Assembly (NCBI GenBank): GCA_021846665.1
Contig: JAJZWM010000006.1
Coordinates: 1-35,369, forward strand
Direction: 5' to 3'
Source: Nanobdellota archaeon
GTDB taxonomy: Archaea > Nanobdellota > Nanobdellia > Parvarchaeales > Parvarchaeaceae
Length of the DNA: 35,369 bases
Below the pieces are notes generated by a model. That model ran no database searches, was not told the DNA's origin, and saw nothing but the letters and a program-made list of their open reading frames with translations. The position numbers and the translations under genes are program-made. Within the stretch, counting starts at the first letter, position 1. Each line of letters opens with the position of its first letter. Below, in pieces: positions 6,722 through 35,369 of the stretch.

Positions 6722-7672
6722 CTAATCTGTTTCATTGAATATTTTAGTATATTCTTCTGGCGTTAATGGATTAATATATAAACCGGAAAGTTCAGCTGAC
6801 CCAATATTAGAAAATCTTGGAGTAATCTCAATATAGAAATGCAGTTCTTTACTCCCTTTAAGCTCATGAAAAATCAAATTATATGAGTGTTTATCAAATA
6901 TCTTATCATTTTTTGCAAGTATTGTTTTTATAAACTTTACCAGGCTTTTTATCTCAGCTCTATCAAGCCTACCTACATAATCAATGTGCCTTTTTGGCAT
7001 TATTATTGAATGTCCTCTAAATCTTGAGCCATAAGGTGCAAATGCGATTGCATTCTTATTTTCTATTAAAACTCTCTCCTTTTCTTTTTTTAACGCTTCT
7101 TCAAGTATGCATTTTTGGTGATTATTTTTTATAATATTAATCTCCTTTTTTATTATCGGTGAAATAAAAGTAAATCCAATTATCTGTGTGTGCTGATGAT
7201 ATAAGCTACCGCCACTTATACTTCCACTATCTTTAAAAGTACAGACCTGTTTTATCCTTTTATCAGAGTACGTAGTATTCTCTGTATCGATTATAAGATT
7301 AAACCATCTCTGCAGTATGTTTTCTTCAATCTCATGAAATTTCTGTAAATGATTAGGAGTATCTATTATTACATATGAATGGCCGTAGTTTGAATACCTT
7401 CTTAAAAAATTAGAATTTTTATAATGTATTATCTCTTCGTTTACAATTGGGTATTTATTATAAATTAATCTTAATTTCCAGGGGTTACCAACAAGTTTTA
7501 TTGTTTTATTAAGATTTTCTTTTCCGTATTCAAACGGACAGTCTTTTGCATTACTTGTTACTTCTTCGTTTTTAAAATCTCTCTGTCTTTTATCTCTTGA
7601 GAATGCAAATATTACTCTTGATCCCGTTATATAATCCTTTCGTATTTCTCCTTTAACTACATCTTCGGACAT
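6722..7672 (-). CDS. galT: Galactose-1-phosphate uridylyltransferase-like protein (GalT, HIT superfamily)
   Basis: The family moves a nucleotidyl group between a sugar-1-phosphate and a nucleotide sugar through a histidine-linked intermediate. The 316-residue length fits GalT. Visible are CPFEYGKEN (45-53, position of the GalT Cys/zinc region), NPWKLRLIYNKYPI (63-76), YGHSYVIIDTPNH (96-108), the active site GGSLYHQHTQIIG (H159-Q-H161-T-Q163) and a C-terminal half with a second HIT fold (ELHFYIEITPRFS). The usual HPHxQ is HQHTQ here; nucleophile and glutamine are kept. The substrate could be UDP-hexose or, as in related enzymes, ADP-hexose. The gene is monocistronic; the 200 bp downstream (6522-6721) hold nothing I can identify. 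Confidence 0.88.
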   Translation of the reverse strand: MSEDVVKGEIRKDYITGSRVIFAFSRDKRQRDFKNEEVTSNAKDCPFEYGKENLNKTIKLVGNPWKLRLIYNKYPIVNEEIIHYKNSNFLRRYSNYGHSYVIIDTPNHLQKFHEIEENILQRWFNLIIDTENTTYSDKRIKQVCTFKDSGSISGGSLYHQHTQIIGFTFISPIIKKEINIIKNNHQKCILEEALKKEKERVLIENKNAIAFAPYGSRFRGHSIIMPKRHIDYVGRLDRAEIKSLVKFIKTILAKNDKIFDKHSYNLIFHELKGSKELHFYIEITPRFSNIGSAELSGLYINPLTPEEYTKIFNETD

Positions 7673-7780: not shown

Positions 7781-7799
7781 AAAGAAATATTTATATCCC
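7781..7799 (+). promoter_or_regulatory. Promoter of pilin-like gene, identical to that at 35067-35085
   Basis: AAAGAAATATTTATATCCC contains a TATA box centred about 27 nt before the ATG at 7819. The same 19 bases occur at 35067-35085, again exactly 20 nt before the first base of the start codon of a related gene. The mRNA is expected to be leaderless. Confidence 0.65.
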
Positions 7800-7818
7800 A
7801 TACTTTCCATCCAATAAT

Positions 7819-9072
7819 ATGTCATTTAATTACCTAAATCTTTTAATAAAAGGTAAGCGTTCTCAGTCCGCTTTGGAATACATGATGACCTATGGCTGGG
7901 CCATCTTAATCATAGTAATAGTAGCCGTTATCCTCTATTCAATGGGTATTTTCAACCCAAGTTCAAGCGTAACTACTACCTCAGTAGGTTTTTCTCCTTT
8001 CGTTGTTTCTTCAGCAGTTTGTAACGATTTTGGTCTTATTGTATCAATAGATTCCGGTGCTTTTCCAAATAATGCCTTTTATGTTAATTTGGATGGTTTT
8101 TATATAGTTTCTGCTTCTGGCATTAATGGGCAGTACAATAAATTATATAATATAACACCTTCTGTTCATAATATATTATTAAAACCAGATAGTTCATCAA
8201 AGATAATAATACCTGAAATAAAGTGTAATACTAGTAAAACTTTCTCTATGTCCGCAAAATTACAGTATTATTATTTAACTCAAGCAGGTAACGTTTCTTC
8301 TAATGCAACAGGTACTATAAATGGACAAGTTTCTAATGAAAATTTTATAAATTTTATTAGAGAACCTCCAAACAGTACATATGGAGATTATCATGGCGGC
8401 TTTATTCTTTTAGATAATAATTCTTATCTATTTAATCATAAGAAAGGATTTACAATTGCAATTTGGTTTAGAGATAAAACGTTGAATCTTTCAAACCAAG
8501 GCTGTAACGATTTCGGATTAGTAGCCAAAAATGGAAGAGGGTATGATAATGAGAGCTATCTTGTTGATTTAGGGACTTCCTGTTCTGTTTCGGGTGATTT
8601 CGCAATAAGGTCATTTATAGTTAATTCAAGTAATGATGAAGAGGTATGGACACCAAGTGGAAATGCAGTTAAGCCTAGTTATTTCTACAATAAATGGGTT
8701 TTATACGTTTTTACGTATAATGCATCTCAAGAAAACGAAAGTATCTATATAAATGGAAAGCTTAACAGCTCACGGCAAGTTTCTGGGACTTTATATACTT
8801 CAATAGCGCCTTTAGATATAGGTGCTAGAGGGATAGTTTATAACGGTGATACCCCAGAATTTGGTTATAGGGTATTTAATGGTACTTTAGCCAATATGCA
8901 ATTTTATAATGTCTCTCTAGATTACTCACAGATTAAACAAATTTACAATGAAGGTATTTATGGCAGGCCGATAAATTATGTGGATCTTATGGGATGGTGG
9001 CCACTTTATGGGAATGCTTTTGATTATAGTGGACATGGAACAGATGGCATATTTATAGATATGTCTCCTTAG
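7819..9072 (+). CDS. Pilin-like (class III signal peptide) surface protein with LamG/concanavalin-like domain
   Basis: This 417-residue protein begins with a basic leader (KGKRS) followed by QSALEY (16-21) and a hydrophobic helix (27-43). This is the class III, type IV pilin-like signal expected to be cut before Q16 with E20 as the +5 Glu, leaving the helix for assembly or anchoring. Residues 52-165 resemble the common core of this surface family (GF...SSAVC...). Residues 190-400 look like a LamG/concanavalin-A-like sandwich: KGFTIAIWFRDKTL, NKWVLYVFTYN, IYINGKLNSSRQ, FNGTLANMQFYNVSL and GWWPLYGNAFDYSGHG. That fold often binds carbohydrates. Many N-x-S/T sequons suggest glycosylation outside the cell. 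A second gene with the same leader starts at 35105. Confidence 0.85.
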   Translation: MSFNYLNLLIKGKRSQSALEYMMTYGWAILIIVIVAVILYSMGIFNPSSSVTTTSVGFSPFVVSSAVCNDFGLIVSIDSGAFPNNAFYVNLDGFYIVSASGINGQYNKLYNITPSVHNILLKPDSSSKIIIPEIKCNTSKTFSMSAKLQYYYLTQAGNVSSNATGTINGQVSNENFINFIREPPNSTYGDYHGGFILLDNNSYLFNHKKGFTIAIWFRDKTLNLSNQGCNDFGLVAKNGRGYDNESYLVDLGTSCSVSGDFAIRSFIVNSSNDEEVWTPSGNAVKPSYFYNKWVLYVFTYNASQENESIYINGKLNSSRQVSGTLYTSIAPLDIGARGIVYNGDTPEFGYRVFNGTLANMQFYNVSLDYSQIKQIYNEGIYGRPINYVDLMGWWPLYGNAFDYSGHGTDGIFIDMSP

Positions 9073-9427: not shown

Positions 9428-10534
9428 ATGAATATGAAATACCTAGCAGCATTAAGCACTACTGTTGGAACAATAATGGGTGGTGGAATACTTGCTTTAC
9501 CATATGCAATAGAGAAAAGTGGATTTTTTGAGGGAATAGCACTTCTTGTACTGATAGGATTTGCGTCTATATTGATAACAATGTATACTGGTGAACTTTC
9601 AAGCCATTTCAAGAAACTTCATCAATTACCTGTGATAATAAGTAAGTATGCAGGTAAAAGACTAAGAATTTCGATTCTTATATTTCAAATTCTAACAATT
9701 TACGGAGCTCAGATAGCTTACCTTACTGGGATAGCATTGATAATGGTGTTTCTTTTTCACTTACCATATACAGTTTCCGTTCTTTTAGTGTTTTTGCTTA
9801 CTCTTCCTTTGATCTATAAAGGTTATAAATTAGTTGAGGATGCAGAAACTCCTCTGCTTTTCATAAAGATAGCTCTTATAGTTGCAGCGGCTTTGTCAGT
9901 TATTACAATAGTCAAGGATGCGAACTTCTATATATATAATATAACGAATCTCTTTGAGCCTTTTGGAATAATTCTTTTCTCATTTACAGGTTACACTGTA
10001 ATACCAGAAGTAAAGCAAGAGCTTGGAGGGATAAAGAAACTTACAAGTATTATTGTCGTTTCCTATATAATCTGTATTCTTCTTTATATCTTCTTCTCAT
10101 TTGCATTTGTTGGGGCTTTTGGCCCATTGGTTTCAACAGTTGCTACCGATGGGATACACTCATTTTACTATGAGATACTGTTTTCTTTAACGACATTGTC
10201 TCTTTTGCTAACACCATATATAGCTCTTAGCCTTGTGTTAGCAGATTCTTTTACTTATGATTTCGGAATAGAGAGAAAGTCAAGCATGTTTTTATCGCTA
10301 GCAGCTCCCTTTGCGATAGCGTTTTTTGACTTAAATTTTGAAAGTATTCTCGATGTTACTGGCGGAGTATTTATTTCACTCCTTGCTATGATGATACTTA
10401 TCGCTGTTTTAATTGAAAGAAGAAAAGCAAAAAAACATATAGGATACCTTGTACCTGGCGGTATATATCTTATAATATTTACTTTTGTAGTAATGCTTCT
10501 TGGTTTAGTATACACTGTTTATTCAATAATATGA
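9428..10534 (+). CDS. Amino-acid permease (AAAP/tryptophan-tyrosine permease-like)
   Basis: This 368-residue integral membrane protein has about eleven hydrophobic segments. The N-terminal motif GTIMGGGILALPYAIEKSG (14-32), with glycines breaking the first helix, is typical of APC-superfamily amino-acid transporters of the AAAP/SLC38 or aromatic amino-acid permease type. FGIILFSFTGYTVIPEVKQEL in the middle matches the broken sixth helix. The substrate cannot be told. It overlaps the pelota gene by 4 nt (ATGA, 10531-10534), so the two are co-transcribed although functionally unrelated. For a small-genome archaeon, uptake of amino acids would fit dependence on a host or community. Confidence 0.88.
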   Translation: MNMKYLAALSTTVGTIMGGGILALPYAIEKSGFFEGIALLVLIGFASILITMYTGELSSHFKKLHQLPVIISKYAGKRLRISILIFQILTIYGAQIAYLTGIALIMVFLFHLPYTVSVLLVFLLTLPLIYKGYKLVEDAETPLLFIKIALIVAAALSVITIVKDANFYIYNITNLFEPFGIILFSFTGYTVIPEVKQELGGIKKLTSIIVVSYIICILLYIFFSFAFVGAFGPLVSTVATDGIHSFYYEILFSLTTLSLLLTPYIALSLVLADSFTYDFGIERKSSMFLSLAAPFAIAFFDLNFESILDVTGGVFISLLAMMILIAVLIERRKAKKHIGYLVPGGIYLIIFTFVVMLLGLVYTVYSII

Positions 10535-19338: not shown

Positions 19339-20640
19339 CTATGGAAGATCGCTGCCAAAACCTACCGTTGGCATAATCCCATTTGGAGGATAAGAACTAA
19401 CAAAAACCCAATTATATAGAGCATCTAATTGTACACCATCAGCATCTGCATAAAAAAATGATAAATATAGAGTAGATTGAGACGTCAATTCATTAGTATA
19501 TGTATCACAGTAAACTTGAGGAGATATTTCACAACCATTTACATTACTAGAAGCTGGAACATAAGTAAAGTTATCTATTTGCCATTGAGTAGTTCCAGTT
19601 CCTACGCTATTATCTGACCAAGAACCATCAGAAAAGCCTTGAACACTAAAAGAACCAGTACTTGAGGGTGCATCTCCGTCATAGTAATTTATACTAGTTG
19701 CTGTTTCACTGTTTCCTAAACCCACAGATGGCTCGGCATTATTATCTGATGTTGAAGGAGCTGCAAAGTAAGCAAATTCTAAGTAAGCTTGATTTGGAAG
19801 CGGTTTTTCATATGTCATTACACCGTTTCTAGTATCTGTAACACCTGTGAGTTGTATAGCTTTTGTACCCTTGTAAGTAGTTGTACTAAAACTTATGGCA
19901 GAGTTCAAATTAAAGTCGCTTTTAGGGGTATTAGCGTTGAAATAAGCATAAAATACATTAGCCCCGTCATCATATTCTCCATAACCTGGAGAAAGTTCTG
20001 GAGCCTCTCCTATTGTAACTTTATTGAAAAGACTTACATTTTTCCTTGCAAAACCCATATAAACTGTAAAAGACGAACTTGCAGGTATGCTACCTACCTT
20101 TATCCACCAAACAGCATACTGTCCTGTATTGCTTTCTAACCAGGAAGGTATAACCGTTCCATTGAAGTAAAAGAACTCAATATTGCTTAGTTCTGCATTT
20201 GAATAGTTTCCATATACCGAATAGTTAGCATTTACCATTTGCTGAAAAGGATAAGGAGTAGCCTGGTTTTGCAGATTGAATATTGTTACAGGTATATAAC
20301 TTATAATATTTGTAGGTTTCTTAGGTAATTGCATTACAATATTCGATGTATTTAATGATACTGCGGAAACATTGATATTTTGCAATTCATTTAAGTATAC
20401 TTTTTGTAATGTAGAATAAACTATACCATACGTACTATTTGATATCGTTAGTGAATTAACATTTGAAAGTGTATTAAGGAAAAAATAATACTGTAGTTTA
20501 GGCATGTTATACGCCTGTATTAATGAATTTACATTTTCATTTGTATTTAGGTTTGCAGATTCTATTCCCAGTATGGTTATAACTGCAAGTATGAGAAATA
20601 GAGAAAAAAATATAGTTACCATCTGCCCTTTATTGTCCAT
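19339..20640 (-). CDS. Secreted DUF2341-like surface protein with pilin-like N-terminus
   Basis: In this 433-residue protein, a short basic start (MDNKGQ) and one hydrophobic helix (8-27) form a signal-anchor or pilin-like leader. The rest is extracellular and Asn/Ser/Thr/Tyr rich. Residues 150-250 (YAVWWIKVGSIPASSSFTVY, MGFARKNVSLFNKVTIGEAP, GYGEYDDGANVFYAYFN) resemble DUF2341, a beta-rich domain of prokaryotic surface proteins. Residues 250-433 look like a concanavalin-like sandwich. Two closely placed Cys (NGCEISPQVYC) may form a disulfide. Abundant N-x-S/T sites suggest glycosylation. It is convergent with ftsY and divergent from elp3. Confidence 0.72.
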   Translation of the reverse strand: MDNKGQMVTIFFSLFLILAVITILGIESANLNTNENVNSLIQAYNMPKLQYYFFLNTLSNVNSLTISNSTYGIVYSTLQKVYLNELQNINVSAVSLNTSNIVMQLPKKPTNIISYIPVTIFNLQNQATPYPFQQMVNANYSVYGNYSNAELSNIEFFYFNGTVIPSWLESNTGQYAVWWIKVGSIPASSSFTVYMGFARKNVSLFNKVTIGEAPELSPGYGEYDDGANVFYAYFNANTPKSDFNLNSAISFSTTTYKGTKAIQLTGVTDTRNGVMTYEKPLPNQAYLEFAYFAAPSTSDNNAEPSVGLGNSETATSINYYDGDAPSSTGSFSVQGFSDGSWSDNSVGTGTTQWQIDNFTYVPASSNVNGCEISPQVYCDTYTNELTSQSTLYLSFFYADADGVQLDALYNWVFVSSYPPNGIMPTVGFGSDLP

Positions 20641-35066: not shown

Positions 35067-35085
35067 AAAGAAATATTTATATCCC
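35067..35085 (+). promoter_or_regulatory. Promoter of second pilin-like gene
   Basis: AAAGAAATATTTATATCCC is identical to 7781-7799, and the distance to the ATG (20 nt) is the same. Confidence 0.65.
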
Positions 35086-35104
35086 TTGATTTATAATCAA
35101 TGAT

Positions 35105-35369
35105 ATGTCATTTAAAACCTTAAACACAGAGAATTTAACTATTTTAACAAAAAGTAAAAGATCTCAGTCCGCTTTGGAATACATGATGACCTATGGCTGG
35201 GCTATTTTGATCATAGTAATAGTAGCAGTAATATTATACAGCATGGGTATTTTTAATCCAGCATCAAGCATATCATTAACAATAACAGGCTTTCAGCAAA
35301 CTCCTATATCCTCAGCAATATGTACTCCGACAGGAGTTCTAGTAGTTTCAGTAGAAGATGCAACAGGTA
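35105..35369 (+). CDS. Pilin-like surface protein, second copy of the leader family (3' partial)
   Basis: The first 88 codons are present and the gene runs off the window. MSFKTLN is followed by the basic SKRS, QSALEY and the same hydrophobic helix as the gene at 7819. From KRSQ to FNP the two proteins are identical for about 35 residues, then diverge while keeping the spacing of GF...SSA-x-C. It is a class III, type IV-pilin-like leader (cut before Gln, Glu at +5). What the C-terminal domain is cannot be seen. Like the first copy, its promoter predicts a leaderless mRNA. Confidence 0.85.
   Translation, partial: MSFKTLNTENLTILTKSKRSQSALEYMMTYGWAILIIVIVAVILYSMGIFNPASSISLTITGFQQTPISSAICTPTGVLVVSVEDATG

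Follow-up and report, generated by a model that had tools for sequence, protein, structure and literature searches.

The window analysed here is the whole of contig C1, 35,369 bases long, from a source assembly of 725 kb in 39 contigs. Two pilin-like genes, one in its left part and one running off its right end, carry the same 5′ block. The features are as follows, all coordinates being those of the window.

6722–7672, reverse strand: HIT-domain gene flanking gene 1; a neighbour kept in the relative G001.
7781–7799, forward strand: promoter block of pilin gene 1, BRE/TATA-like AAAGAAATATTTATATCCC, of archaeal type.
7819–9072, forward strand: pilin-like gene 1, 417 aa, ATG at 7819, from translation; orthologue G010_90/G001_08, head 93% identical.
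7819–7863, forward strand: signal peptide of gene 1, MSFNYLNLLIKGKRS, from translation; cleavage expected before QSALEY.
7861–7901, forward strand: 41-nt tract of gene 1, identical to 35162–35202 and private to the source genome among the collected copies.
7864–7974, forward strand: homogenised H-domain (stalk) of gene 1, from the family alignment and codon comparison.
8431–8934, forward strand: Laminin_G_3/concanavalin-type head of gene 1 (Pfam PF13385, E 7e-9).
9428–10534, forward strand: amino-acid permease gene flanking gene 1; a neighbour kept in G001 and G010.
35067–35085, forward strand: promoter block of pilin gene 2.
35105–35369, forward strand: pilin-like gene 2, ATG at 35105, cut by the contig end.
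35105–35164, forward strand: signal peptide of gene 2, MSFKTLNTENLTILTKSKRS.
35162–35202, forward strand: 41-nt tract of gene 2, identical to 7861–7901.

The first-pass annotation had reported 19 promoter bases common to both genes, and 7781–7799 is indeed an exact repeat of 35067–35085; ATGTCATTTAA also recurs in both 5′ blocks (7781 and 35067), as claimed. The distance from block to ATG, given as 20 nt, is equal in the two genes, although the gap itself is 19 nt and 20 is the step to the A of the ATG. Positions 7817–7829 and 35103–35115 are identical as well (ATATGTCATTTAA), the claimed 41-base match is exact, a further 17-nt match links positions 7909 and 35210, and the 35 residues said to be shared by genes 1 and 2 agree throughout (KRSQSALEYMMTYGWAILIIVIVAVILYSMGIFNP). 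The 41-nt tract holds 13 codons, 10 with synonyms and three (M, M, W) without; given the same residues and the codon usage of the window, agreement of all 13 has a chance of about 5e-5. Among them TCC, ACC, GGC and TTG are rarely used in the source genome (7–16%). Allowing up to one mismatch, the 19-nt promoter block occurs in only three places in the 725 kb genome, each upstream of a pilin gene, and its reversed control gave no match at the same threshold. A 38-mer core is common to genes 1 and 2 and to a third copy on contig C19; it is absent from the collected copies of all other genomes, the nearest of which has one mismatch. More distant family members lie on contigs C8 and C10. The two genes are therefore neither the only copies nor whole-gene duplicates, since their heads differ and the third copy exists on C19.

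The order HIT gene, pilin, permease and next gene is the same in the window and in G001 (L025), where two tandem pilins stand between HIT gene and permease compared with one in the window. The G001 tandem pilins have near-identical leaders and different bodies; the intergenic DNA upstream of gene 1 aligns with the first of them and its body with the second (93% amino-acid identity). A crossover between tandem leaders, or a duplication in the reverse direction, would explain one pilin in the window and two in G001. Silent sites of gene 1 match the orthologue at 18 of 32 positions in the leader and 251 of 330 in the body (p = 0.02), and those of the leader match unlinked copies in the source genome. 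Single-pair Fisher tests are modest (p ~0.02–0.04 for the window gene), and the two-copy evidence in the window amounts to one short tract. The AlphaFold2 model of gene 1, built with 30 relatives, is of low confidence (pLDDT 52) and has a helix at 18–41; PilC (7oa8) is among its weak fold matches, a hint only given the quality of the model. Weak profile and fold matches to the clostridial neurotoxin binding domain were rejected as a sign of kinship, since the jelly-roll fold that LamG-like lectins have in common accounts for them.

The source genome is that of a tiny, acidophilic DPANN archaeon resembling Ca. Parvarchaeum, and its named relatives are Candidatus Parvarchaeota bins (Parvarchaeum-like, also labelled Nanoarchaeota). 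Every genome of genus g1 has 4–25 matches to the family, compared with 0–2 in genomes of other families of the class, and the collected set comprises 178 distinct copies from 27 genomes. At the N-terminus, basic residues and a small residue precede QSALEYMMTYGWAILIIVIVA, in alignment columns that are invariant; the pattern [KRHN][AGST]|QSALEYMMTYGWAILIIVIVA is present in 164 of the 178 copies, and throughout the family one basic and one small residue stand ahead of the Q ([KRHN][AGST]|QSALEY). The N-terminus has the layout of archaeal type IV pilins: a short basic stretch, a cleavage site and then some 20 hydrophobic residues. Position +5 of the mature protein is an invariant E (QSALE(+5)Y) in the family alignment, and Glu at +5 is common, though not universal, in mature archaeal type IV pilins. 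The Pfam/NCBIfam class III signal model gave no match to the leader even at E 10, though such models help to detect these proteins and do not define them; single members have weak FlaG, UpsA and archaeal flagellin matches. The source genome encodes an A24 prepilin peptidase (PF01478) on C8 and T2SSE-type ATPases (PF00437) on C36 and C19. On the strength of the motif, the machinery and the weak FlaG, UpsA and flagellin hits, rather than a Pfam leader model, the family is probably an archaeal type IV pilin with a class III-type signal peptide, whose members would assemble into a filament.

The heads vary. Of 61 members scanned with Pfam, 23 have Laminin_G_3, 18 have DUF2341 and about nine have a beta-propeller family, which supports the earlier suggestion of varied extracellular domains on a common pilin-like stalk. 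Elsewhere in the window, 19339–20640 on the reverse strand encodes a 433-aa protein with the N-terminus MDNKGQMVTIFFSLFLILAVITILG and a sub-threshold DUF2341 match, possibly another pilin-like protein with a head type of this family. Distant leader matches at G000:C8:5180-5305, C10:69595-69726 and C10:55283-55408 lie in very long frames of 1142–1376 codons; such matches occur in most genomes of the genus, and the one on C8 adjoins the A24 prepilin peptidase. Four leaders, L068 (G010_100), L082 (G008_70), L090 (G006_48) and L103 (G017_131), are truncated, with promoter and signal intact and the frame stopping 11–34 residues past QSALEY. Failed recombination may have left them as scars, or they may be donors of leaders.

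The first-pass annotation had proposed that, if synonymous divergence fell sharply over the leader in many copies, this would point to conversion, and among the 178 copies from 27 genomes many do show such a fall. At identical residues in codons 0–18, the same codon is used in a fraction of 0.646 within genomes versus 0.444 between them; in the heads the fraction is about 0.36 both within and between genomes, and outside codons 0–18 the between-genome value is about 0.37. Shuffling the genome labels gave 0.419 for leaders against an observed within-genome 0.591 (sd 0.007; none of 2000 shuffles reached it), and the heads hardly departed from the shuffled value (0.376 versus 0.364). Because the heads serve as a control, genome-specific codon usage is ruled out as the cause. 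The nearest neighbour lay in the same genome for 67 of 107 copies when judged by leader, and for 23 of 107 when judged by head. In G005, G008 and G011 there is little homogenisation or none. The silent choices are themselves specific to a genome, reading TCC-GCT-TTG-GAA in all three source-genome copies versus TCA-GCA-TTA-GAG in near relatives, and the non-coding promoter DNA is homogenised within genomes too.

Similar codons would also be kept without any recombination if the leader mRNA sequence itself were needed, for instance for initiation or signal recognition. Consistent with this, the between-genome value in codons 0–18 lies slightly above the background, and ATA at position 16, TAC/TAT and GGC are favoured in most genomes. 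However, an RNA- or codon-level constraint does not account for silent choices that differ from genome to genome, nor for homogenised promoter DNA outside the coding sequence and an identity that stops abruptly; we regard it as largely refuted, and as a full explanation highly improbable.

Where identity stops was mapped, counting from the Q codon, for the 104 pairs of copies from one genome whose leaders agree at 88% or more. Identity collapses (median 0.90 to 0.57) between +60 and +180 nt in 89 pairs and between +360 and +480 in 11, and its 5′ end lies mostly either at −120 to −80, where the promoter is bounded upstream, or at the cleavage site. From these positions, the exchanged unit is the promoter together with the signal and H-domain. 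Further breaks occur at about +780, behind a shared region, in G009_79/80, G017_122/124 and G004_23/32; a scan across the family suggests that the region before them is of DUF2341 type. That breakpoints fall at the ends of shared sequence suggests that homologous recombination made the mosaics.

Some heads have crossed between species. Between −60 and +90, G004_21 agrees with other G004 copies at 0.93–1.00, after which identity falls to about 0.5, the random level; against G017_134 it is 0.53–0.83 identical up to +150 and about 0.85 from there to past the stop codon. The two heads share 0.89 of amino acids and 0.77 of codons, well above the baseline for topoisomerase VI-A between G004 and G017 (0.75 and 0.42), and the head has therefore moved between species to a place behind a local leader. 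In G006_51, sequence from three sources is combined. Averaged over 167 cross-genome pairs with similar heads, synonymous similarity is about equal in leader and head (0.46 and 0.50), since the majority of these pairs date far back; the diagnostic recent ones are only G004_21/G017_134, G006_51/G010_93 and G000_05/G010_90. The G003–G017 pair was left out of the transfer claims on account of its odd topoisomerase VI-A baseline (0.93 amino-acid identity). Between the G003 enzyme (L235) and the G017 one identity is 93%, much more than either has with its neighbours, which points to transfer or bin contamination.

Could the pattern be due to duplication alone, with one pilin gene multiplied in each genome and heads that diverged fast afterwards? 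Tandem copies at L025, L028, L202 and L226 and the 4–25 matches per genome would fit. Yet at synonymous sites the resemblance between heads from one genome does not exceed what chance would give, the nearest neighbour of a head lies elsewhere in 84 of 107 cases, and heads have orthologues behind other leaders in other genomes; moreover, synonymous divergence jumps at a point and does not change smoothly. Recent duplication is refuted as the sole cause and very unlikely as a complete account, although duplication of the 5′ block may contribute. Of the causes that the first-pass annotation saw as implied, then, gene conversion or other recombination is supported, an RNA constraint plays a minor part at most, and duplication is not sufficient.

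All the genomes are metagenome bins, some of low coverage (about 1.7× for FK2.bin89), and some mosaics could be mis-joins. Contigs C1, C4, C9, C11, C16 and C19 of G010, and contigs of several other bins, stop inside pilin leaders, and among the G010 copies listed eight of 18 are at contig ends. The family evidently breaks assemblies, and copy numbers are therefore underestimates. An assembly or binning artefact, in which unrelated contigs were joined through the shared leader or leaders were collapsed, would draw on the same facts, but we consider it extremely unlikely as the source of the pattern as a whole. Leaders within a genome are similar and not identical, the patterns recur where contig naming points to different assemblers (NODE_, k141_, UBA), G001_08 and G010_90 agree throughout although they come from separate assemblies, and orthologues of whole heads occupy one syntenic place with different leaders.

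A second and unexpected feature of the family, one outside the view of the first-pass annotation, is repeat tracts. Long CA, CT or ACAG tracts number 17 across the genomes searched, and every one of them is at the 5′ end of a pilin gene; neither of the two window genes has one. ACAG tracts of at least five units number 10 in the G037 genome (FK2.bin89), all 10 at pilin 5′ ends (L297–L302, L052–L101), where they are coding tracts in the signal peptides. Two CA tracts of at least seven units were found in 11 genus genomes, both at pilins. A search of 28 genomes gave five CT tracts of at least seven units, each of them placed after the TATA box and before the ATG of a pilin copy (G010_92, G014_114, G009_86, L299 and L300; 7–12 units), where tract length may change the spacing from promoter to start. 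In G037 the tract lies between the conserved ATG and the cleavage site. Twelve G037 copies have a mapped ATG, six in frame and six out of frame, and identical start and tract sequences are found in both states. Eight out-of-frame copies, among them the CA copies G021_141 and G009_71, were examined for other starts. Four of these have no in-frame ATG, GTG, TTG or CTG start; two of the others carry a TTG in frame just ahead of the cleavage site, and two a CTG. Downstream, the frame is complete in six of the eight (371–479 codons), and the remaining two are cut by contig ends. A contingency locus has just this anatomy, and the sequence suggests switching.

The tracts might instead be neutral by-products of extra-long signal peptides, in which case the out-of-frame copies would be dead or would use other start codons, as the copies with TTG or CTG would allow. 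This reading is possible but on balance unlikely. It leaves aside the restriction of all 17 long tracts to pilin 5′ ends, and the four copies that keep intact downstream frames of up to 479 codons in the absence of a usable in-frame start; nor does it explain how the same start and tract sequences come to be both in and out of frame.

Several known systems resemble parts of this arrangement. In Neisseria pilE/pilS, silent promoterless 3′ cassettes feed one expression locus. A conserved pilin 5′ part, a variable 3′ part and gene conversion are common to that system and the present family (the pilin N-terminus is the subject of PMC4877100); in contrast, a copy of the present family nearly always comes with its own promoter and a full frame, and no promoterless cassette array was found among the collected copies, which include the four truncated leaders. 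The repeat tract of Neisseria opa genes sits in the signal-peptide region. About 11 dispersed opa adhesin genes recombine, and a CTCTT tract in each sets the reading frame (PMC13183285). The likeness lies in dispersed, recombining copies and in a repeat between start codon and mature protein that is in or out of frame (in G037, and in the CA tracts elsewhere). Every opa gene has the repeat, however, while here a subset of copies does, with a unit that differs by species, and Opa proteins are bacterial outer-membrane eight-stranded beta-barrels without a pilin stalk, unlike the pilin H-domain with lectin or propeller heads described here. The present family would thus work like opa without being homologous to it.

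At the protein level the nearest precedent is Haloferax volcanii PilA1–PilA6, which, according to the PilA passages of that source, share a conserved H-domain but number six copies with small heads, unlike the present family; nothing in those passages describes DNA homogenised across the genome, heads exchanged between species or microsatellites (PMC4371748). Streptococcus sanguinis PilB and PilC are described, in the relevant parts of two sources, as modular pilins with a large adhesive head on a small pilin module, the PilC head being a concanavalin A-like lectin module (PMC8179133, PMC9934059). The extra domain is C-terminal to the pilin module in the present family too; the modular pilins are bacterial, however, and the survey passages mention neither archaea nor recombination at a shared leader.

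Taken as a whole, we think it likely that these genes form a multicopy pilin family with a 5′ block homogenised by recombination and exchangeable heads, with phase variation as a putative further layer in the copies that carry microsatellites. Promoter, signal peptide and H-domain would act as one 5′ block of about 200–250 nt, and the remainder as an exchangeable extracellular head (lectin-like, beta-propeller or DUF2341). Gene conversion and crossover between copies would have their anchor in the leader that the copies share or, in fewer cases, in another zone of homology at about codon 140; recombination would homogenise the 5′ block within each genome and re-pair it with different heads, including those from other species, while selection for a subunit that fits the same filament would hold the leader protein fixed. 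Slippage in the 5′ microsatellites would then switch single copies, through the frame (CA and ACAG tracts) or the promoter-to-start spacing (CT tracts), and the cell would show some of its heads at a time, in a changing selection that probably serves contact with host or partner archaea. Of these steps, retention of the stalk by selection is well supported and the spread of leaders with re-pairing of heads is supported by the mosaics, while we infer switching by slippage from the tracts and their frames. The more specific proposition, that this is a contingency-locus system of surface display in DPANN archaea, with a homogenised promoter-leader handle, heads swapped within and between species and microsatellite slippage turning copies on and off in parallel to Neisseria opa, has in our judgement about an even chance of being right.

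Microsatellite phase variation is treated as bacterial in the literature. In a 2025 review of the subject the word ‘archaea’ is absent from the main text (PMC11868660), and microsatellite density is lower in archaeal genomes than in those of the other domains (PMC12699852). Our search of the open-access literature, which cannot prove absence, found no paper on archaeal microsatellite phase variation or archaeal pilin gene conversion. Pilins with a conserved H-domain, modular pilins and opa-type families are each known separately; their combination in an archaeon did not turn up in that literature. Should the contingency-locus reading hold, microsatellite phase variation would have evolved in an archaeon in parallel to the opa system of Neisseria, and since the tracts are found solely at pilin 5′ ends the question can be tested from existing read data. 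ARMAN cells have been seen joined to Thermoplasmatales by pili-like structures (PMC5864196). A pilin repertoire that is large, shuffling and perhaps phase-variable, encoded in some 0.7 Mb of genome, would offer candidate host-contact proteins and a candidate means of escape from viruses that use pili, and it touches on how ultrasmall DPANN archaea recognise and change their partners.
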